A DNA stretch of 64,000 nt, taken from assembly GCA_947453885.1 (NCBI GenBank), contig CANGIF010000014.1, positions 1 through 64,000 on the forward strand, given 5' to 3'. The first letter of the stretch is position 1. The number at the start of each line of letters is the position of its first letter. A model generated the notes under the pieces. It made no database searches. It was not told the DNA's origin and worked only from the letters and a program-made list of their open reading frames with translations. The stretch comes from Flavobacteriaceae bacterium. Its GTDB lineage: Bacteria > Bacteroidota > Bacteroidia > Flavobacteriales > Flavobacteriaceae. The position numbers and the translations under genes were made by a program. Positions 13,622 to 24,522 of the stretch are shown here, one piece after another.

Positions 13622-14365
13622 ATGGCAACACAAAAAGGGCTCGTTTTACTTGAGGGAACTATTGGAGGGATTAATTTTTATTACAGAAAAGGCAAGGCTG
13701 TGGCTCGAAAAGCGGGTGGTGGTTTTAATGGGAAAGCGATTAAAACGAAACCGAGTATGATTAGGGTTAGGGAAAATAACTCTGAATTTGGGCATTGTTC
13801 TCGTGTGAAAAAGGAGATTCGGATGACGTTATTTCCTTTTTTTATGTATTATAAAGAGGGAACTTTGCACGGTAGAATGATGCAATTGTTTCAAGGGATT
13901 AAGAATTGTGATGCGGTTTCTGAACGAGGACAACGCACTGTGGGCAAGGGTATTATTAGCCCAGCGGGGCAAAAACTCTTTAGTGATTTTAGATTTACTC
14001 CTAAATGTTTTATTGCTAGTGATGTACCGATGAAGGCAAGTTATGATGCTATTTCTTGTGTCTATAGCGTTACGGATTTTGATATTAACGCGGTGCATTT
14101 TCCGGAGGGTGCTACTCATTTGGAATTGCAATTTGGGGTTTTAGGTACTGATTTTGATAAGGTTTATAAACTATTTACGGCTCCTGTTTTGGTGTTTGAA
14201 AAAGGGGTGCCAATAGCTTCTTTTATTATGACTCCCGCTGCTTTGCCCGAGGTTGGATTGCACCGATTTGCTTTTGTTGGGGTTACTTTTTATCAAGAGC
14301 TAAATGGGATAAAATATGTGTTGCGAGCGGATGGGAATATTGGTGTTGAGATGGTGGGGATTTAG
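13622..14365 (+). CDS. Lineage-specific protein of unknown function
   Basis: A 247-residue protein with a glycine- and lysine-rich start (LEGTIGGINFYYRKGKAVARKAGGG), then a mixed alpha/beta region. No signal peptide, membrane segment or motif that I recognise. It resembles conserved hypothetical proteins that recur in multiple copies in flavobacterial genomes. Its last about 110 bp and roughly 65 bp beyond the stop are duplicated at 19.45 kb in the same orientation, on the other side of the RNA-repair island. It looks intact and sits at the left edge of the island. Function unknown. Confidence 0.6.
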   Translation: MATQKGLVLLEGTIGGINFYYRKGKAVARKAGGGFNGKAIKTKPSMIRVRENNSEFGHCSRVKKEIRMTLFPFFMYYKEGTLHGRMMQLFQGIKNCDAVSERGQRTVGKGIISPAGQKLFSDFRFTPKCFIASDVPMKASYDAISCVYSVTDFDINAVHFPEGATHLELQFGVLGTDFDKVYKLFTAPVLVFEKGVPIASFIMTPAALPEVGLHRFAFVGVTFYQELNGIKYVLRADGNIGVEMVGI

Positions 14366-16071: not shown

Positions 16072-16194
16072 GACAAGCCGCTGTCAAATCGAACCAAAAT
16101 CGATTGCAGGATTCGAACCTGCGAATTTTCTATTGTTCTAACCTACTGAACTATCACATTTCTGTGAGTGGGAATCGAACCCACGACCCATAGA
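16072..16194 (-). ncRNA. Y-RNA-like RNA: two tandem circularly permuted tRNA-like modules
   Basis: Read on the minus strand, module 1 (16194-16129) runs: TCTAT (anticodon stem 3' strand), GGGTC (variable), T arm GTGGG-TTCGATT-CCCAC, TCACA-GAAA-TGTGA (both acceptor strands joined by a GAAA tetraloop), TA, D arm GTTC-AGTAGGTTA-GAAC, A, ATAGA (anticodon stem 5' strand). Every arm pairs perfectly. Module 2 (16122-16072) has T arm GCAGG-TTCGAAT-CCTGC, a closed acceptor hairpin AATCGA/TCGATT and D arm GACA-GCGGCT-TGTC. T arm, closed acceptor, then D arm is the order in the tRNA-like module of bacterial YrlA Y RNAs, which bind Ro proteins. No Ro gene is in the window. The full extent of the RNA is unknown. 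Confidence 0.7.
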
Positions 16195-16407
16195 GTGGGA
16201 CCGTTTTTTGGAAAACAGCCTAAAACCTCCAAATCAAGTTGCATAGAAAAACCTAATACGCTTTCGCGAAAAGTTCCCTACAATGGTGCTATACAGAAAC
16301 ACGCAACAGGACTTGTTTGATATTTTCAGTCTATAAAAGAACTTGTTTTATTTCTTGAGCAAATATTCAAAAGGGAGTGCGAAAGGATTTTGCGTAGTGG
16401 AAATTAA

Positions 16408-18289: not shown

Positions 18290-18361
18290 CGATTCTGGAA
18301 GGATTCGAACCTACAACCATTGGCTTAACAAACCACCGCTCTACCGTTGAGCTACAAAATC
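18290..18361 (-). tRNA. tRNA-Asn(GTT), array member 1
   Basis: First tRNA transcribed, about 16 bp after the attenuator terminator. Acceptor GATTTTG/CAGAATC, D arm GCTC-AACGGTA-GAGC, anticodon loop TTGTTAA (anticodon GTT) on a stem with one G.A mismatch, T stem GTAGG/CCTTC with one mismatch, discriminator G73 as usual for Asn. Confidence 0.87.
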
Positions 18362-18376
18362 AGTAATTATTAGGCA

Positions 18377-18404
18377 TAAAAAAAGCACCTCATCAAAGGT
18401 GCTT
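18377..18404 (-). terminator. Attenuator terminator 2, directly before the tRNA array
   Basis: On the minus strand: GCACCT - TTGATG - AGGTGC stem-loop followed by seven T. It lies 25 bp after the stop of leader ORF 2 and about 16 bp before tRNA-Asn, so it must be overcome for the array to be expressed from promoter 2. The 5' arm GCACCT can pair instead with AGGTGC inside leader ORF 2 (18452-18457), giving an antiterminator. Confidence 0.85.
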
Positions 18405-18428
18405 CCTATCATAACATTAGAATACTTC

Positions 18429-18575
18429 CTATTCCTTATGCCTGTATTTTTGCACCTGTACATTCTCAAACCCAAAGTCAAAACTCGGATACACAGTTAG
18501 TCTATCATGTTGTAAACAATCTTTCATTGTTAGTGTGTTTATATTTTGCGATTGTAAATTATAGCGTGTTCTCAT
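18429..18575 (-). CDS. Leader peptide 2 (48 residues), putative tRNA sensor
   Basis: A 48-codon ORF between promoter 2 and the terminator before the tRNA array. It starts MRTRYNLQSQNINTL and ends QKYRHKE. The A-rich region before ATG suits Bacteroidota initiation. Of 48 residues, 32 belong to the ten amino acids served by the array. Before the antiterminator segment (codons 40-42) it contains at least one codon for each of the eleven array tRNAs: AAT/AAC, AGA, CGC, AAA, GAT/GAC, CAT, CCG, TAT, CAA, CTA and TTT. It includes several codons that are usually rare in AT-rich Bacteroidota. Inference: ribosome stalling on a depleted tRNA frees AGGTGC to pair with the terminator arm and opens the operon. 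Short ORFs can occur by chance, but the position and the similar leader ORF 1 argue against that. Confidence 0.72.
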   Translation of the reverse strand: MRTRYNLQSQNINTLTMKDCLQHDRLTVYPSFDFGFENVQVQKYRHKE

Positions 18576-18655
18576 TTTTATATTGTATAATGTAAAATTG
18601 TATATTGTAAAAATTTATATTCTATTTTCTAATCTCTTTTTCTAAATTTCTGGTG

Positions 18656-18688
18656 CAAAGATAAAGTCAAAAAAAACTAACTTCCAAA
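18656..18688 (-). promoter_or_regulatory. Promoter 2 of the tRNA/RNA-repair operon
   Basis: On the minus strand TTTG (18685-18688), 21 bp, then TATCTTTG (18656-18663), matching Bacteroidota -33 and -7 boxes. It gives a leader of about 285 nt containing leader ORF 2 and the terminator. Confidence 0.65.
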
Positions 18689-18867
18689 TCTTTTTTAAAA
18701 TTATTTTATTGTTTTTCAATTAGTTAAACTAAATTTAAAACATAGAAAATCCTGTCCACTATTCTAGTAGATTCCTTATTAGTGTCAAATGACTGTCTCT
18801 CATTTGGTTACTTTTCAAGGTTATATTGCGTTATTTTTATAATTCATTAAACATTTTTTTTCATTTT

Positions 18868-18965
18868 TTTTATGCTGAACTTGTTTCAGCATCTCATTTA
18901 TTATTATTTACATCATTTATTATTCCGACTTTGTCATCCCGAACGCAGTCGAGGGACTTTTTTAG
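18868..18965. repeat. Dispersed intergenic repeat elements
   Basis: TGCTGAACTTGTTTCAGCA (a short palindrome, 18872-18890) and TGTCATCCCGAACGCAGTCG (18932-18951), both of a type scattered widely between Bacteroidota genes. They lie between the first attenuator and promoter 2. A short frame across them encodes the familiar repeat-derived peptide CHPERSRG and is not a gene. Confidence 0.7.
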
Positions 18966-18987
18966 AATACAATTTTTACTTTAAAAC

Positions 18988-19019
18988 AAAAAAACGTCCC
19001 ATTTTCATAGGACGTTTTT
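18988..19019 (-). terminator. Attenuator terminator 1
   Basis: On the minus strand: AAAACGTCC - loop - GGACGTTTT followed by further T. It lies about 30 bp after the stop of leader ORF 1. The 5' arm AACGTCC can pair alternatively with GGGCGTT inside leader ORF 1 (19077-19083), seven pairs with one G.U. The hairpin is also usable on the plus strand. Confidence 0.8.
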
Positions 19020-19047
19020 GTATTTATATTGGTGTTTTATCTAAAAA

Positions 19048-19146
19048 TCAATTCATTTTCTCATAAAAACACCTACAACGCCCAGTCATTTCAACAGGAT
19101 ATCTTCCTGCTAAACGGTCGTGATTTTGATTAAATAGTGATTTCAT
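19048..19146 (-). CDS. Leader peptide 1 (32 residues), putative tRNA sensor
   Basis: A 32-codon ORF starting 22 bp after the expected start site of promoter 1. Its first 17 residues are MKSLFNQNHDRLAGRYP. Codons 2-17 include AAA, CTA, TTT, AAT, CAA, CAC, GAC, CGT, AGA, TAT and CCT, one or more for every tRNA of the downstream array. Only Ser, Ala, Gly and one TTA codon fall outside the set. The antiterminator segment GGGCGTT follows at codons 22-24. The dense, almost one-codon-per-tRNA layout strongly suggests a leader peptide that tests charging or integrity of exactly these tRNAs, as his/trp leader peptides test one amino acid. No similarity to known proteins is expected or seen. Confidence 0.78.
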   Translation of the reverse strand: MKSLFNQNHDRLAGRYPVEMTGRCRCFYEKMN

Positions 19147-19174
19147 CTGTGTTTTCAGAATTTTTATTTCGGGG

Positions 19175-19206
19175 CAAATGTAATTGTTTTTTTTCTATTT
19201 ATACAA
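19175..19206 (-). promoter_or_regulatory. Promoter 1 of the tRNA/RNA-repair operon
   Basis: On the minus strand TTG (19204-19206), 21 bp, then TACATTTG (19175-19182), a good fit to Bacteroidota -33/-7 boxes and to promoter 2. Expected start site near 19168. Confidence 0.65.
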
Positions 19207-19296
19207 TTCCTCTATTATCTGTATTAAATTTACAATAGCTTTTTCAGCATCGGGGATTTCCAGCAGAGTTAACCTTAATAAAAAGACTGAAATATA

Positions 19297-19453: not shown

Positions 19454-19628
19454 GGGTTGCGCCGATTTGCTTTTGTTGGGGTTACTTTTTATCAAGAACT
19501 TAATGGGATAAAATATGTGTTGCGAGCGGATGGAAATGTTGGTGTTGAGGTGGTGGGGATTTAGGTTTTAGGTATTTGGTTTTAGGTTTTGGGGTTGTTT
19601 GCTTATAGTTTCACGAAGAAATTGCATT
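19454..19628 (+). pseudogene. Right direct repeat: truncated 3' copy of the 13.6-kb gene
   Basis: Carries the codons for the last about 33 residues of the 247-residue protein (FAFVGVTFYQELNGIKYVLR, then ADGNVGVEVVGI and stop) plus the same downstream sequence, with a handful of substitutions. The rest of the gene is absent. Same orientation as the left copy; together they bracket the island. It could be a recombination scar or the remnant of a paralogous gene. Confidence 0.85.
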
Positions 19629-19795: not shown

Positions 19796-19910
19796 GTATT
19801 CTGAAAAGTCGAAATTCATAATACCTACAGGGAAGTTTAAGCTAACGTTCACGCGTAGGTGTGGGCGTTACTTTGCTTTGTAGGTACGGGCTTCGACTCC
19901 CGCAGAATAC
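19796..19910 (+). ncRNA. tRNA/tmRNA-like structured RNA upstream of the type III RM genes
   Basis: Perfect outer stem GTATTCTG/CAGAATAC (8 bp, acceptor-like), then an unpaired D-like segment (AAAAGTCGAAATTCATAA), a long helix starting with perfect TACCTACA/TGTAGGTA (19822-19829 with 19879-19886), an inner hairpin AACG..CGTT, then a T-arm-like CGGG-CTTCGACT-CCCG just before the 3' acceptor strand. Acceptor, stemless D-like loop, long helix and T arm is the topology of the tRNA half of tmRNA, but only about 115 nt are present and no tag ORF or pseudoknots are seen. A TATATTTG box lies at 19716-19723. The RNA ends 49 bp before mod, so it may be a free RNA or a 5' regulatory element. Confidence 0.6.
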
Positions 19911-19959
19911 GAGTAAGGTAATTAGCCTGCACCTATTTTTTTGTCGCCTAGACAAAAGC

Positions 19960-21846
19960 ATGAAATTATACACAACACTAGAAAAAGTTTTAAAAACCGA
20001 ACCCAATTTTGTTACTGATGAAGGCGAACTTAAAAAATGGGTGGTTATCAGTAAAGCACAAAACTATGATGCTGAACTAATCGGTTTATTGCTTGATGAA
20101 CCTGAACTTAAAGCGCACTTTTTTATTCCTGTTAAAGATGTTTTGGTATTTAACCAAGACTTGTTTGTGGAATTTATGGAACAAAAAAACTATTTGAACG
20201 ATAGTTATACTGCTTATAAAAATAAAATAGGACTTACTATAGATGGCAAATTCTTGAACCAAAGGAACGAAGTGGCTTTGGTTTGGCCTTATAAAGATTG
20301 TGTTCTAGAAGGAGGACAAAGCCGAGAGGAAGACAAAAGAGAGGAAATTTTTTTTAATGAAGTGCTGGCACAAGACGAAATTAACCAATTGCTAGCGCCT
20401 AAAGTTTTGACTAATGCGAAAACGTTTACTGTTGATGGAGAAAAAGCATTTGAAGGTTTTACTAGAAATGAGGAAGGAACTATAACGGATAATTTGATTA
20501 TTAAAGGGAACAATCTTTTGGCTTTGCACAGTTTGAAAGAGGAGTTTACGGGGAAAGTAAAGTTGATTTATATAGACCCGCCTTATAATACTGGGAAAGA
20601 TGGGTTTAACTACAATGATAGATTTAACCATAGTAGTTGGCTGACTTTCATGAAGAACAGATTACAAATTGCAAAAGAGCTATTATCAAATAATGGAAGT
20701 TTATGGATAAATATTGATGATAGAGAAGCACATTATTTAAAAGTTTTAGGAGATGATATATTCGGCAGGGATAATTTTATAATAAATGTTGTTTGGCAGA
20801 AAAAATATGCGCCTCAAAATGACGCTAAATTTTTTACAGATAATCATGATCACATACTTGTATTTGCTAAATCCAAAGGGCATTTCAAAATAAATCCACT
20901 AAAGAGAACAGCCGAAAATAATAAGCAATATATTAACGATGATAAAGATGGGAGAGGATTATGGAGAACAGATAACATACTTGTTAAATCATTTACAAAT
21001 GACAGGGTATTTCCAATTATAAATCCAAATACAAAAAAGGAATTCAATCCACCAAAAGGTAGATGTTGGAGATATTCTCAAAGCAGCTTAGAATTGATGA
21101 TTGTTGAAAATAGGATTTATTTCGGTAAAGATGGTACTGGTGCCCCTCAAGTAAAAAGATATTTAAAAGAAGTAAAGGATGGTATAACTCCACTTTCAAT
21201 TTGGTTAAGAACAGAAGCGGGAGATAATCAAGAAGCTAAAAATGAAACGTATGCTTTTGAAAACGAAAATACTTTTGAAACACCAAAGCCAGAAAGATTA
21301 ATAGAAAGAATAATTAATATTGGTTCAAATTCAGGTGATATTGTTTTAGATTTTTTTGCAGGAAGCGGAACTACATCTGCGGTTGCTAATAAAATGGGGA
21401 GACAATTTATTACAACTGAACAAATGGATTACATAGAAAATGTAACTATTGAGCGATTAAAAAAAGTAGTTGCTGGCGAACAAGGAGGCATTTCCAAATC
21501 TGTCAATTGGCAAGGCGGCGGTTCATTTACCTACCTAGAACTCAAAAAATACAATCAAACTTTTGTAGATAGAATTCAAGAAGCTAAAGACACTAAAACA
21601 CTATTGTTAATTTGGGAAGAAATGAAAGTGAAGTCATTCATGAGTTATAATATAGCTATTCAAAAGCAAGAGGAGCATTTAGAAGAGTTTAAGCAATTGA
21701 CGTTTGAAGAGCAACAAAAGTTATTAATAACGTTGTTGGATAAAAACCAATTGTATGTGAATTTGTCTTCTATGCATGATAAAGATTTTGAGTGTAGCAC
21801 TGAAGAGGTTAAAGTGACAGAGGATTTTTATGAATTGAAGAAGTAA
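19960..21846 (+). CDS. mod: Type III restriction-modification methyltransferase (Mod)
   Basis: A 628-residue beta-class N6-adenine methyltransferase. The catalytic motif DPPYNTG (about residue 206) precedes the SAM-binding motif LDFFAGSGTT (about residue 464), the order typical of type III Mod subunits. The segment between holds the target-recognition region. Start chosen at MKLYTTLEKVL; the upstream in-frame part overlaps the structured RNA. It methylates one strand of an asymmetric site and is required with Res for cleavage. The start codon follows the structured RNA closely. No simple repeat tract that would give phase variation is visible. Confidence 0.93.
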   Translation: MKLYTTLEKVLKTEPNFVTDEGELKKWVVISKAQNYDAELIGLLLDEPELKAHFFIPVKDVLVFNQDLFVEFMEQKNYLNDSYTAYKNKIGLTIDGKFLNQRNEVALVWPYKDCVLEGGQSREEDKREEIFFNEVLAQDEINQLLAPKVLTNAKTFTVDGEKAFEGFTRNEEGTITDNLIIKGNNLLALHSLKEEFTGKVKLIYIDPPYNTGKDGFNYNDRFNHSSWLTFMKNRLQIAKELLSNNGSLWINIDDREAHYLKVLGDDIFGRDNFIINVVWQKKYAPQNDAKFFTDNHDHILVFAKSKGHFKINPLKRTAENNKQYINDDKDGRGLWRTDNILVKSFTNDRVFPIINPNTKKEFNPPKGRCWRYSQSSLELMIVENRIYFGKDGTGAPQVKRYLKEVKDGITPLSIWLRTEAGDNQEAKNETYAFENENTFETPKPERLIERIINIGSNSGDIVLDFFAGSGTTSAVANKMGRQFITTEQMDYIENVTIERLKKVVAGEQGGISKSVNWQGGGSFTYLELKKYNQTFVDRIQEAKDTKTLLLIWEEMKVKSFMSYNIAIQKQEEHLEEFKQLTFEEQQKLLITLLDKNQLYVNLSSMHDKDFECSTEEVKVTEDFYELKK

Positions 21847-21847
21847 T

Positions 21848-21932
21848 TGCTAGTTTGTCATTTCGACGAAGGAGAAATCACATCCAGTTTAAATATATAA
21901 TGAGATTCCTCCTTCGTCGGAATGACAAAAAG
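21848..21932. repeat. Imperfect palindromic repeat between mod and res
   Basis: TGTCATTTCGACGAAGGAGA (plus strand) and, inverted, TCCTCCTTCGTCGGAATGACA form a long imperfect hairpin. This is a common dispersed Bacteroidota element. A half copy occurs at 24608-24636 (CTCCTACTTTGTCGGAATGA). It could act as a partial terminator between mod and res. Confidence 0.75.
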
Positions 21933-21954
21933 GATGGAATAAATAAAAGAGGAA

Positions 21955-24522
21955 ATGGCATATTTATACGATACACTAATTGAAGAGTTTGGCAAAAGAG
22001 CCATAACTAAGGTTGAAATTCCTAACTATATTACGGATAACTTGAAACCAGGTTATGGTGAAAGAGACTATCAAAAAGAAGCTTTTCAACGGTTTATTCT
22101 TTTTTATAATGAAGATTTTGAAGGCAAGCCTAGAAAGCCTTTTCATTTGATGTATAACATGGCTACCGGAAGTGGTAAAACACTTATTATGGCTGGGTTG
22201 ATGTTGTATTTGTATGAGAAAGGGTATCGCAATTTTTTGTTTTTTGTACATTCTAATACGATATTGGATAAGACAAGAGAGAATTTTTTGAATCCGAAAG
22301 CGAGCAAGTATTTGTTTAATTCGAGTATTGACGTTAATGGTCAAAAAGTATATGTAAAAGAAGTTCGCAACTTTGACGAAGCCGATGATAAAAACATTAA
22401 TATTCACTTTACTTCAATACAAAAGCTGCATTCCGATTTGGTGCAAAGCGAAAAAGAAAATGCGTTGAGTATTGAAGATTTTAAGAATAGAAAAATAGTT
22501 TTGTTAGGAGATGAAGCACATCATTATAATGCCAATACGCAAAGTCAGACCCAATTGTTTCAGAGTTGGGAACGCTTGATTGAGGCTATTCATCAAGCCG
22601 ATTTAAACAATTTTTTGTTAGAGTTTACGGCTACTTTGGATTATGAAAGCAAGGATATTGTAAAGAAATATGAAGATAAAGTAGTGTTTAAATATGATTT
22701 GAAGCAGTTTAGATTGGATAAATTCTCTAAAGAAATCAATTTAATTCGTTCCAACTATGATGAGAAAGAACGAGTGATTCAAGCTATCATTTTAAATCAA
22801 TACCGTCAAGAATTAGCCACCAAACAAAATATTAATTTAAAGCCAGTTATTCTTTTTAAAGCCAAGCAAACGATAAAAGAATCGGAGCAAAATAAATTGA
22901 ACTTTCATTATTTGATTGACAATTTGGACGGAGCGACTATAGAAAATATTAGAAATACCTCTACGGTTGCCATTGTTCAGAAAGCATTTTCGTTTTTTGA
23001 CAGCATTCATTTATCTGATAATGAATTGGCAAGGCGATTGAAATCGAATTTTAGACCTGAAAATTGTTTGAGTGCCAATGATGATAAAGAGGCAGAAGCA
23101 AATCAAATAAGATTGAATACTCTTGAAGATGCTAACAATCCTATACGAGCGATTTTTGCCGTTCAGAAATTGAATGAAGGTTGGGATGTTTTGAATTTGT
23201 TTGATATTGTTCGATTATATGAAGGACAAAACTCAGGAGGCTCTAATAAAACATTTGGAAAAACAACCGTTGCAGAAGCGCAATTGATAGGTAGAGGCGC
23301 GAGGTACTTCCCTTTTATTTTAGATATTGACCAAGATAAATTCAGACGAAAATATGATGATGACCTTGAAAATGATTTTAAGGTTTTGGAAGAGTTGTAT
23401 TATCATACCAAAGATGAGAGTAAATATATTTCGGAGTTAAAGAAAGCTTTGGAGCATTTTGGAAGCACCGAAAAGGAAGAGGATATTGTTACCAAACAAC
23501 TGGAATTAAAATTTGATTTTAAAGCGACTGAATTCTATAAAACAGGAACGGTTCATTTTAACAAACGCAAGGAGAAAAGTTATTCTAATGTAAAATCGTT
23601 TGCTGATTTGGGTGTTGTCAAAAAGAATTATGAATATGTTTTGTCTTCTGGAAGTGGAAAAATGTCGGGCATGTTTTCTACTGATTATGAAATTACAGAG
23701 GATAAGAATATAGCAAAAGACATCAAATTAAATGAAATTTTTGACCAGCATATTATTCGATATGCTTTAGCTCAAAATCCCTTCTTTCATTTTAATTCCT
23801 TATCAAAGTATTTTCCAAATGTGCCTTCGACAAGCTTTTTTATTCAAAATGAAAACTATTTAGGAAATGTTGAAATTGCTTTTGTAGGAACAAAAAACAG
23901 ATTGGAAAACATCTCTAATAAAGATTATTTGTTAGCTATTCAAGGATTATTATCTACAATTGAAATCGAGATAAAAAGTAATTTAACTCAATATGAAGGG
24001 TCGGATTATATTCAGAAAAAAGTGCATGAGGTTTTTAAAGACAAACCTTTGCGAATAAATAAATATGACGAAAGAGCAGATGGTCAAGAGAGTTTTGTGG
24101 TCAATGAACCTTGGTATGTTTACAATGCTAATTTTGGAACAAGCGAGGAAAAAGATTTTGTAAAAATGTTTGCCAAGAGATTTGAAAGTTTGAATACCAA
24201 GTTTGATAATATCTTTTTGATAAGAAATGAACGAGAAGTAAAGATTATTGACAAATTGGGTCGTGCCTTTGAACCTGATTTCATTTTGTTTTGCAAACAA
24301 AAAGATGGTGAAGAGTTGACTTTTCAGGTTTTTATAGAACCTAAAGGAGGACATTTACTTACTCATGATAAATGGAAAGAAGATTTCTTAAAAGAAATTA
24401 AATCGGAAAAGAAAACAATAAAAATTAATACTGATAAATACCTAATTACGGGTGTTCCATTTTACAATAATAAAATAGAAAATGAATTTAGAAGTTCATT
24501 GGAGGATGTTTTAGGAATATAA
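21955..24522 (+). CDS. res: Type III restriction endonuclease subunit Res
   Basis: An 855-residue superfamily 2 helicase-nuclease. Walker A is MATGSGKT (about residue 69), the DEAH box is LLGDEAHHYN (about residue 186), helicase motif VI lies in QLIGRGARYFPF, and the C-terminal nuclease motif is FEPDFILF...EPKGG (PD-ExK, about residues 772-795). It translocates after ATP hydrolysis and cuts unmodified DNA together with Mod. Separated from mod by 108 bp holding a palindromic repeat. It looks complete. With the CRISPR locus and RNA-repair island, it makes the left 25 kb a defence region. Confidence 0.93.
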   Translation: MAYLYDTLIEEFGKRAITKVEIPNYITDNLKPGYGERDYQKEAFQRFILFYNEDFEGKPRKPFHLMYNMATGSGKTLIMAGLMLYLYEKGYRNFLFFVHSNTILDKTRENFLNPKASKYLFNSSIDVNGQKVYVKEVRNFDEADDKNINIHFTSIQKLHSDLVQSEKENALSIEDFKNRKIVLLGDEAHHYNANTQSQTQLFQSWERLIEAIHQADLNNFLLEFTATLDYESKDIVKKYEDKVVFKYDLKQFRLDKFSKEINLIRSNYDEKERVIQAIILNQYRQELATKQNINLKPVILFKAKQTIKESEQNKLNFHYLIDNLDGATIENIRNTSTVAIVQKAFSFFDSIHLSDNELARRLKSNFRPENCLSANDDKEAEANQIRLNTLEDANNPIRAIFAVQKLNEGWDVLNLFDIVRLYEGQNSGGSNKTFGKTTVAEAQLIGRGARYFPFILDIDQDKFRRKYDDDLENDFKVLEELYYHTKDESKYISELKKALEHFGSTEKEEDIVTKQLELKFDFKATEFYKTGTVHFNKRKEKSYSNVKSFADLGVVKKNYEYVLSSGSGKMSGMFSTDYEITEDKNIAKDIKLNEIFDQHIIRYALAQNPFFHFNSLSKYFPNVPSTSFFIQNENYLGNVEIAFVGTKNRLENISNKDYLLAIQGLLSTIEIEIKSNLTQYEGSDYIQKKVHEVFKDKPLRINKYDERADGQESFVVNEPWYVYNANFGTSEEKDFVKMFAKRFESLNTKFDNIFLIRNEREVKIIDKLGRAFEPDFILFCKQKDGEELTFQVFIEPKGGHLLTHDKWKEDFLKEIKSEKKTIKINTDKYLITGVPFYNNKIENEFRSSLEDVLGI

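Follow-up and report, generated by a model that had tools for sequence, protein, structure and literature searches.

The stretch of DNA analysed here, referred to below as the window, comprises 64,000 nt from a Flavobacteriaceae bacterium (contig CANGIF010000014.1, positions 1 to 64,000). On its minus strand an array of eleven tRNA genes and the gene of an Rnl2-family RNA ligase are preceded by two short open reading frames (ORFs), each followed by an intrinsic terminator. As read from sequence, these two modules are probably tandem ribosome-mediated attenuators, whose leaders hold codons for most tRNA types and which would pass transcription on to the array and the ligase when any of these tRNAs is missing. 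With less assurance, and still as the reading that we favour, the pair may serve as a sensor of the tRNA inventory: the leaders would have evolved to carry at least one codon for nearly every isoacceptor, and the loss of any single tRNA would switch on stand-by tRNAs and RNA repair.

Module 1 starts with a promoter-like element P1 (TACATTTG, 19182-19175, detected by pattern scan), which lies 36 nt upstream of leader 1 and has a TTG 16-26 nt further upstream. Leader ORF 1 (19146-19048; 32 amino acids, MKSLFNQNHDRLAGRYPVEMTGRCRCFYEKMN) was identified by ORF call and by conservation among related loci, and it is followed after 28 nt by the hairpin and T run of terminator T1 (19019-18990). Module 2 consists of the promoter-like element P2 (TATCTTTG, 18663-18656, with TTG upstream; detected by pattern scan and kept in a 12-locus alignment), leader ORF 2 (18575-18429; 48 amino acids, MRTRYNLQSQNINTLTMKDCLQHDRLTVYPSFDFGFENVQVQKYRHKE; identified in the same way as leader 1) and, 21 nt past the leader, terminator T2 (18407-18380). 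The array (18361-17472; ARAGORN and Rfam) and the ligase gene (17421-16408; PF09414 and PF18043) come next. The two promoter, short ORF and terminator modules that the initial annotation had placed ahead of the tRNA array were thus confirmed by ORF, terminator and pattern scans. TAnnTTTG is the Bacteroidetes promoter consensus, and elements of this form precede both leaders of the window. A strict -33/-7 promoter rule was matched at 12 and 5 of the 77 related loci described below, so the promoters are claimed as promoter-like elements, and for the window alone.

The complementarities that had been noted between a late segment of each ORF and the 5' arm of its own terminator are present: GGGCGTT (19083-19077, codons 22-24 of leader 1) pairs with AACGTCC of T1, and AGGTGC (18457-18452, codons 40-42 of leader 2) with GCACCT of T2. 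Folding energies of -16.0 and -14.8 kcal/mol (z -5.8 and -4.6) were predicted for the T1 region (18990-19042) and the T2 region (18380-18423), and of -20.7 and -15.0 kcal/mol (z -4.5 and -2.8) for the competing antiterminator hairpins at 19089-19007 and 18463-18396, respectively.

Related loci were gathered via the ligase as the best 80 of 246 matching genome loci, mostly of Chryseobacterium and Flavobacterium, together with stretches from further genera, and 101 loci were scanned, the window included. The scan left out L001 (the locus of the window), the viral loci L002-L005, the overlapping L166 and L167, small search loci, L129 and L134-L141; the contigs of L129, L135, L137, L139 and L140 are equal in length to those of loci already in the set, and L134, L136, L138 and L141, all four of which have both leaders, were presumed without proof to be duplicates. 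Both modules were found in 89 of the 101 loci, 77 by an automatic rule and 12 by leader homology. The set of both modules was not found in the other 12: L030 starts 28 nt ahead of the first tRNA, L018 starts 700 nt ahead of the ligase, L075 and L089 start among the tRNA genes, and no array was found in L016, L126-L128, L131-L133 and L162. When the loci of the first set with at least five array tRNAs were counted with the same exclusions, both leaders were present in 75 of 76, the sole exception being L030 with its cut 28 nt before the first tRNA.

The position of the pairing segment is constant across loci, 40 nt before the end of leader 1 in 54 of 77 and 27 nt before the end of leader 2 in 51 of 77. 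Leader segment, terminator 5' arm and terminator 3' arm covary three-way, as in the changes from TGAGGCG/CGCCTCG/CGAGGCG to TGAAGCG/CGCTTCG/CGAAGCG and from AGGTGC/GCACCT/AGGTGC to AGGCGC/GCGCCT/AGGCGC. In all 30 modules folded from 15 loci the antiterminator hairpin exceeds its dinucleotide shuffles in mean stability (z <0), with mean z values of -3.1 and -2.5, and the segment-arm matches in 28 leaders of 14 representative loci are jointly significant (Fisher 3e-10, from leaders that are not fully independent). Each module thus has a short ORF closely preceding an intrinsic terminator and a predicted antiterminator, formed from the late ORF segment and the terminator 5' arm and mutually exclusive with the terminator; codons matching the controlled function stand ahead of the antiterminator, but they are of many types and not of one or a few. 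A tandem leader-peptide attenuator architecture with predicted mutually exclusive hairpins, kept across genera, is supported by this comparison.

The initial annotation had also claimed that both leaders contain codons for all eleven array tRNAs, and this was borne out. Within codons 2-17 of window leader 1 the complete set occurs, as it does in 2 of 200,000 real coding windows (P 1e-5); window leader 2 has all 11 array boxes by codon 40 (P 0.018, real coding windows). The excess of array-box codons as such amounts to 12/16 in leader 1 (P 0.02, weak) and 24/39 in leader 2 (P 0.06). The distinct decoding boxes used before the antiterminator number 19 of 25 in leader 1, with 12.7 expected (P 5e-5), and 21 in leader 2, with 17.3 expected (P 0.034). 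Under a harder control, the short intergenic ORFs of the same loci, the full window leaders are moderately unusual in their count of distinct boxes, at 0.047 (leader 1) and 0.27 (leader 2); the window alone is thus suggestive, and the comparative data decide. Of 26 leaders from 13 loci (three of Chryseobacterium), every one has more boxes ahead of its antiterminator than real coding windows have on average (mean z 2.7). All 26 likewise exceed the intergenic-ORF mean, with combined P values of 3e-7 for leader 1 and 4e-4 for leader 2 when one Chryseobacterium locus was kept.

Amino acid usage before the antiterminator is flattened toward equal use in the 77 loci as compared with the coding background, Cys (3.8-fold), His (2.0), Gln (1.8), Trp (1.5) and Arg (1.5) lying above it and Lys (0.6) and Glu (0.7) below. 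With the start Met excluded, 49 of the 77 loci have a leader pair that encodes all 20 amino acids; each of the other 28 pairs misses one or two, for the most part Met, while Trp is the gap in Flavobacterium-type loci and Pro that in genus g150. Leader 1 of L122, L028 and L083 fits all 20 amino acids into the 28 codons before the antiterminator, where real windows average 13.8. Isoacceptors are balanced in 11 loci (Leu CTN:TTR 35:36, Ser TCN:AGY 29:29, Ile ATA:ATY 29:25, Arg CGN:AGR 26:44), with a difference from intergenic ORFs for Ile (P ~5e-4) and Ser (P ~6e-4). Leu does not differ, and its balance was rejected as proof of isoacceptor sampling, intergenic ORFs being equal (0.52 CTN).

In Chryseobacterium-type leader 1s, Trp at codon 26 and Trp at codon 29 replace each other: neither is present in 4, a single one in 25 and 15, and both in 12 (Fisher P 0.0016). 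When alignment columns were shuffled among leaders, the observed mean of distinct boxes was 22.11 against 20.71 for leader 1 and 20.95 against 20.39 for leader 2, and 0 of 2000 shuffles reached it in each case; the P values of the shuffles and of the Trp replacement are rough, as the leaders share ancestry. The counts for the 42-codon leader 1 omit L017 and L065 (longer upstream ATGs), those for leader 2 are based on 38 unique 41-codon leaders, and L165 (genus g277) was counted among the Chryseobacterium-type loci here as well as in the Met/Trp association and in the frame and pN/pS analyses. From these excesses, changes in the leaders look compensated and the codon set looks kept complete. 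Taken together, codon content indicates that the leaders sample almost the whole tRNA set and are not mainly mirrors of the array.

The initial annotation had proposed that the leaders sense the same set of tRNAs that they control. As stated, this was not supported at the level of amino acid prevalence or for leader 1; a residual link was found for leader 2. In the pair test, 35 independent related pairs with arrays of at least five tRNAs were compared, and P values were obtained by permuting amino acids within pairs and then by sign flips. Gains and losses in leader 2 went in the same direction as those of the array in 46 cases, in the opposite direction in 19 and were equal in 81 (P 0.0002 and 0.011), whereas no such relation was found for leader 1 (26 same, 33 opposite, 87 equal; P 0.82 and 0.86). 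Both leaders together gave 53 same, 35 opposite and 58 equal (P 0.0098 and 0.077), and 68, 36 and 62 when all loci were used (P 0.002 and 0.004); Chryseobacterium alone was not significant (34, 24 and 40; P 0.08 and 0.12). After five-fold correction for the five runs, the leader 2 result survives under within-pair permutation and not under sign flips. A Met codon in leader 2 is associated with the presence of tRNA-Met in the array (12/12 against 17/46; P 1e-4, not corrected for relatedness and drawn from a test in which many amino acids were tried). Trp is missing from four of 56 leader 1s, and each of the four stands before an array that has no tRNA-Trp; 18 leader 1s that contain Trp do so too (P 0.02). 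Across 19 amino acids the enrichment in leaders could not be predicted from prevalence in arrays (Spearman 0.22, P 0.37). In the 77 loci, 5%, 0% and 1% of the arrays include Ala, Gly and Val, respectively, as against 99-100% of the leader pairs. Both leaders are retained, moreover, where the array is absent or has one or two tRNAs (L124, L125, L163, L087, L164).

A strip of codons matched to the leader's own array and sensing just those tRNAs is therefore weighed as follows. The complete array set early in window leader 1, the covariation of leader 2 and the Met and Trp associations in Chryseobacterium all speak for it, but it finds no support for leader 1 in the pair test or at the amino acid level, and it was rejected as the only principle; the near-universal Ala, Gly and Val codons, the leaders that persist without an array (L124, L163) and those before two tRNAs in G186, a genome without a ligase match, make it unlikely as a whole. 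Some tuning to the array, mainly in the leader nearest to it, is suggested on top of the pan-tRNA content. A more serious candidate, possible and on balance doubtful, is a general translation-stress attenuator, in which any slow-down of the ribosome, chiefly by antibiotics, would cause read-through as at the upstream ORF (uORF) of whiB7, codon completeness being secondary. The architecture is the same as that of the whiB7 uORF, and whiB7 is reported, in passages of PMC10287673, to sense stalling and to rise after tRNA cleavage; passages of PMC10272220 likewise describe induction of an Anabaena tRNA operon by ribosome-targeting antibiotics. Against this stand the completeness of the set, the isoacceptor balance and the compensating changes, by which the codon content does not look incidental. 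This account overlaps with that of the inventory-sensing attenuators, as one attenuator could do both.

Functional microproteins encoded by the ORFs, with ordinary terminators behind them, are very improbable. The frame is kept in Chryseobacterium-type loci, where 56 of 58 leader 1s are exactly 42 codons long and leader 2 has 35-45 codons, and an early His-Ile is common to several genera by eye; the pN/pS values, however, are 0.72 for leader 1 and 0.52 for leader 2 (shifted frames, 0.71-1.07), which is weak amino acid constraint, and a conserved competing hairpin links each ORF to its terminator. The kept frame and the pN/pS values are in modest agreement with a translated ORF whose peptide matters little. 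By eye, an early His, often as His-Ile, stands near codons 6-8 across genera (L122, L164, L087, L047, L031, L124 and others), for example in MTKNYLHIAS, MKLQRIHIAG, MRKQCRHIAK and MTIQRAHINA. Direct sensing by RNA, through a T-box-like element or another riboswitch that binds uncharged tRNA and needs no translation, is the least credible alternative: alternative hairpins do lie upstream of tRNA genes, but the reading frames are conserved. None of the eight Rfam matches (E <=5) at 18300-19250 on both strands belongs to the T-box or another riboswitch family, and this identity, having no Rfam support, was rejected. The second-lowest E-value there, after that of a tRNA gene, belongs to a Phe leader-peptide model below its threshold (E 0.062; 26.1 bits against a cut-off of 55). 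The likelihoods given to the inventory-sensing attenuators and to their rivals are not mutually exclusive.

In the mechanism proposed for the inventory-sensing attenuators, both leaders would be translated, and a ribosome that completes the ORF would favour the terminator. If a ribosome instead stalls at an empty codon early in the leader, the late-ORF segment would be free to pair with the terminator 5' arm, and transcription would read through. As a ribosome needs nearly every tRNA to reach the end of each leader, a shortage of any one would suffice, whether through cleavage or through missing charging. Transcripts from P1 would pass both checks and those from P2 just the second. In window leader 1 all array codon types would be met by codon 17, approximately the last stall position that leaves the segment at codon 22 uncovered, a limit that rests on the footprint geometry of the E. 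coli ribosome. The induced tRNAs and the ligase would then refill the tRNA pool; exonuclease, phosphoesterase-like or cyclic-phosphate receiver-domain proteins, which some relatives encode, may help to restore it.

Several observations weigh against this mechanism. The complete RNA at equilibrium prefers the terminator in 20 of 20 modules folded, so the switch must hinge on co-transcriptional timing, that is, on which hairpin forms first. Taken singly, the contiguous segment-arm matches of the 28 leaders are ordinary or weak (codon-shuffle P 0.0075-0.44), those of 6-7 nt in the window being unremarkable (P 0.17 for leader 1 and 0.065 for leader 2), and single matches were rejected as proof. 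The antiterminator z is above -1.3 in 5 of 30 modules (leader 2 of L122, L124, L157 and L163; leader 1 of L087); the leader 2 antiterminator is less clear in genera g198 and g150, and in g198 the usual position did not yield a leader 2 segment. The T run after the T1 stem is broken in the 12 loci recognised by homology (GTTTCTTG). As compared with intergenic ORFs, individual leaders are ordinary (fraction at least 0.2), namely leader 2 of the window, L015, L163 and L124, leader 1 of L130 and L163, and both leaders of L087. There is no Trp codon in either leader of the window, L012, L013 and L014, and 'every tRNA' is not literal there. Peptide constraint is weak, one shifted frame of leader 1 giving 0.71, and the early His-Ile of several genera is left unexplained by the inventory idea.

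The array reads, in order of transcription, Asn(gtt), Arg(tct), Arg(acg), Lys(ttt), Asp(gtc), His(gtg), Pro(tgg), Tyr(gta), Gln(ttg), Leu(tag) and Phe(gaa). Ten of these tRNAs were detected by ARAGORN at its default setting; the eleventh, Pro(tgg), required a 92% threshold in ARAGORN and was also matched by Rfam (31.5 bits, cut-off 29). All array anticodons are duplicated elsewhere in the same genome, and since the best copies with the same anticodon are merely 59-70% identical, the array is not a recent duplication. In the close relative L013 (ligase 92% identical) the array is reduced to little beyond tRNA-Phe, leader 2 is shortened to 32 codons, and leader 1, devoid of Pro codons, carries its single His codon in an upstream extension; these leaders look as if they were decaying together with the array. 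In four g198 loci (L122, L157, L158 and L161) a second small tRNA cluster (variously Cys, Met, Val, Gly and Asp) was observed 0.2-2.5 kb upstream of the leaders.

The distribution of the ligase is patchy, with 7 of 397 genomes sampled in the family and 29 of 395 in the order. Its nearest relatives in the protein search are from Flavobacterium, and loci close to the window have ligases 77-93% identical to it; viral relatives are distant (36-39% identity in four viral loci), those of phages reach at most 38.1% identity among the 20 listed of 1382 matches, and those of plasmids comprise two records at 24-26% identity. In the viral contigs L002 and L003 an Rnl2 relative is followed downstream by 14 tRNA genes, and L002 also has a short ORF-terminator pair ahead of a tRNA. 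In genus g150 (L124, L125 and L163) the leaders lie directly ahead of the ligase with no array between, and an RtcB gene is found about 10 kb downstream in one of these loci. The surroundings of the ligase in L039 (Chryseobacterium indologenes) encode an RNase H-like protein, a cyclic-phosphate processing receiver domain, an RNase T-type exonuclease and a phosphoesterase-like protein, the last just below its Pfam cut-offs. G186, a genome of the window's genus, gave no ligase match and carries both leaders, the two terminators and the conserved element described next; these are followed by two tRNAs and by genes that resemble the exonuclease and the phosphoesterase of L039 by eye.

Between T1 and P2 a conserved element (about 18809-18748, minus strand; GAGAGACAGTCATTT ... 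GGACAGG) was identified by alignment of the related loci. Its core, [AG]GAGACAGTCA, was found by regular expression in 64 of 77 loci, with variants in most of the remaining loci inspected, and the exact 16-base core occurs in 2 of 299 family genomes, both times next to these leaders. A GAGACAG core lies between pairing arms, followed by a second small hairpin and then GGACAGG; the stem of the second hairpin seems to covary by eye (CUACU/AGUGG, CUGCA/UGCGG, CCGUU/AACGG). No Rfam family matched the element at 18748-18809, and no consensus structure was predicted by RNAalifold from 61 unique copies. It could be a DNA operator or an RNA.

Downstream of the ligase, the minus strand of the window encodes a slipin/Band 7 protein (15707-14610; PF01145), and between the two genes, at 16080-16260 on the same strand, lies an Asn-like tRNA-like sequence that ARAGORN called once its threshold was lowered and that may be the Y-like RNA of the initial annotation. 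On the plus strand, the C-terminal stretch of a protein encoded at 13622-14365 is repeated near-exactly (RFAFVGVTFYQELNGIKYVLRADGN) at 19457-19564, and near-identical copies thus flank the whole tRNA-ligase cassette, perhaps as a trace of insertion. Type III restriction-modification genes (19861-24522, plus strand) adjoin the cassette.

Toxins and defence systems cleave particular tRNAs, and the question arises how bacteria, having no dedicated sensor for each, could detect the loss of any one of dozens. If the proposal is true, the ribosome itself reads a checklist whose outcome controls stand-by tRNAs and an RNA ligase, tRNA arrays in Bacteroidota have a concrete reason, and codon completeness before an attenuator becomes a rule for finding more such sensors from sequence alone. 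RNA repair systems have reportedly been surveyed by Burroughs and Aravind in 2016. No published leader of this kind, nor the locus itself, was found in a literature search outside which most subscription papers lay; within the literature searched, this would be the first attenuator to apply a logical OR to almost all tRNAs of the pool, its second leader being partly tuned to the array.

The leader-peptide attenuators of trp, his and ilv test one to few amino acids, often via runs of one codon. They are alike in their short ORF, in the upstream segment that pairs with the terminator 5' arm and in the terminator as the alternative; unlike them, the leaders described here have nearly each codon type once or a few times, and the output would be tRNAs and an RNA ligase. 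At whiB7/WblC, uORF-mediated transcription attenuation is thought to sense ribosome stalling, and whiB7 is up after VapC5 cleaves tRNA-Ser (passages of PMC10287673); attenuation, stall sensing and the response to tRNA cleavage are shared, whereas a transcription factor of resistance genes is controlled there, and a leader with one codon per tRNA type is not described in those passages. The toiL uORF of E. coli topAI, which according to passages of PMC12121999 senses several ribosome-targeting antibiotics, resembles the present leaders in that one uORF answers several translation stresses, and differs in acting via translation and Rho-dependent termination and not via intrinsic terminators. In the Salmonella rsr-yrlBA-rtcBA operon damaged tRNA also turns on RNA repair genes, but there, according to passages of PMC7790460, RtcR senses tRNA halves via its CARF domain and switches on rtcBA, with no sensing of ribosome stalling. 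In Anabaena TrcR represses rtcB and a silent tRNA array that ribosome-targeting antibiotics induce, and the genes up upon loss of TrcR include rtcB and a slipin gene (passages of PMC10272220); a tRNA array induced by translational stress would be the shared feature, whereas the regulator there is a ribbon-helix-helix repressor, the words 'leader' and 'attenuat' being absent from the text of that paper. Beside the sensing of tRNA halves by RtcR and the repression by TrcR, the tandem leaders would, if the proposal is true, represent a third switch for RNA repair and tRNA arrays.

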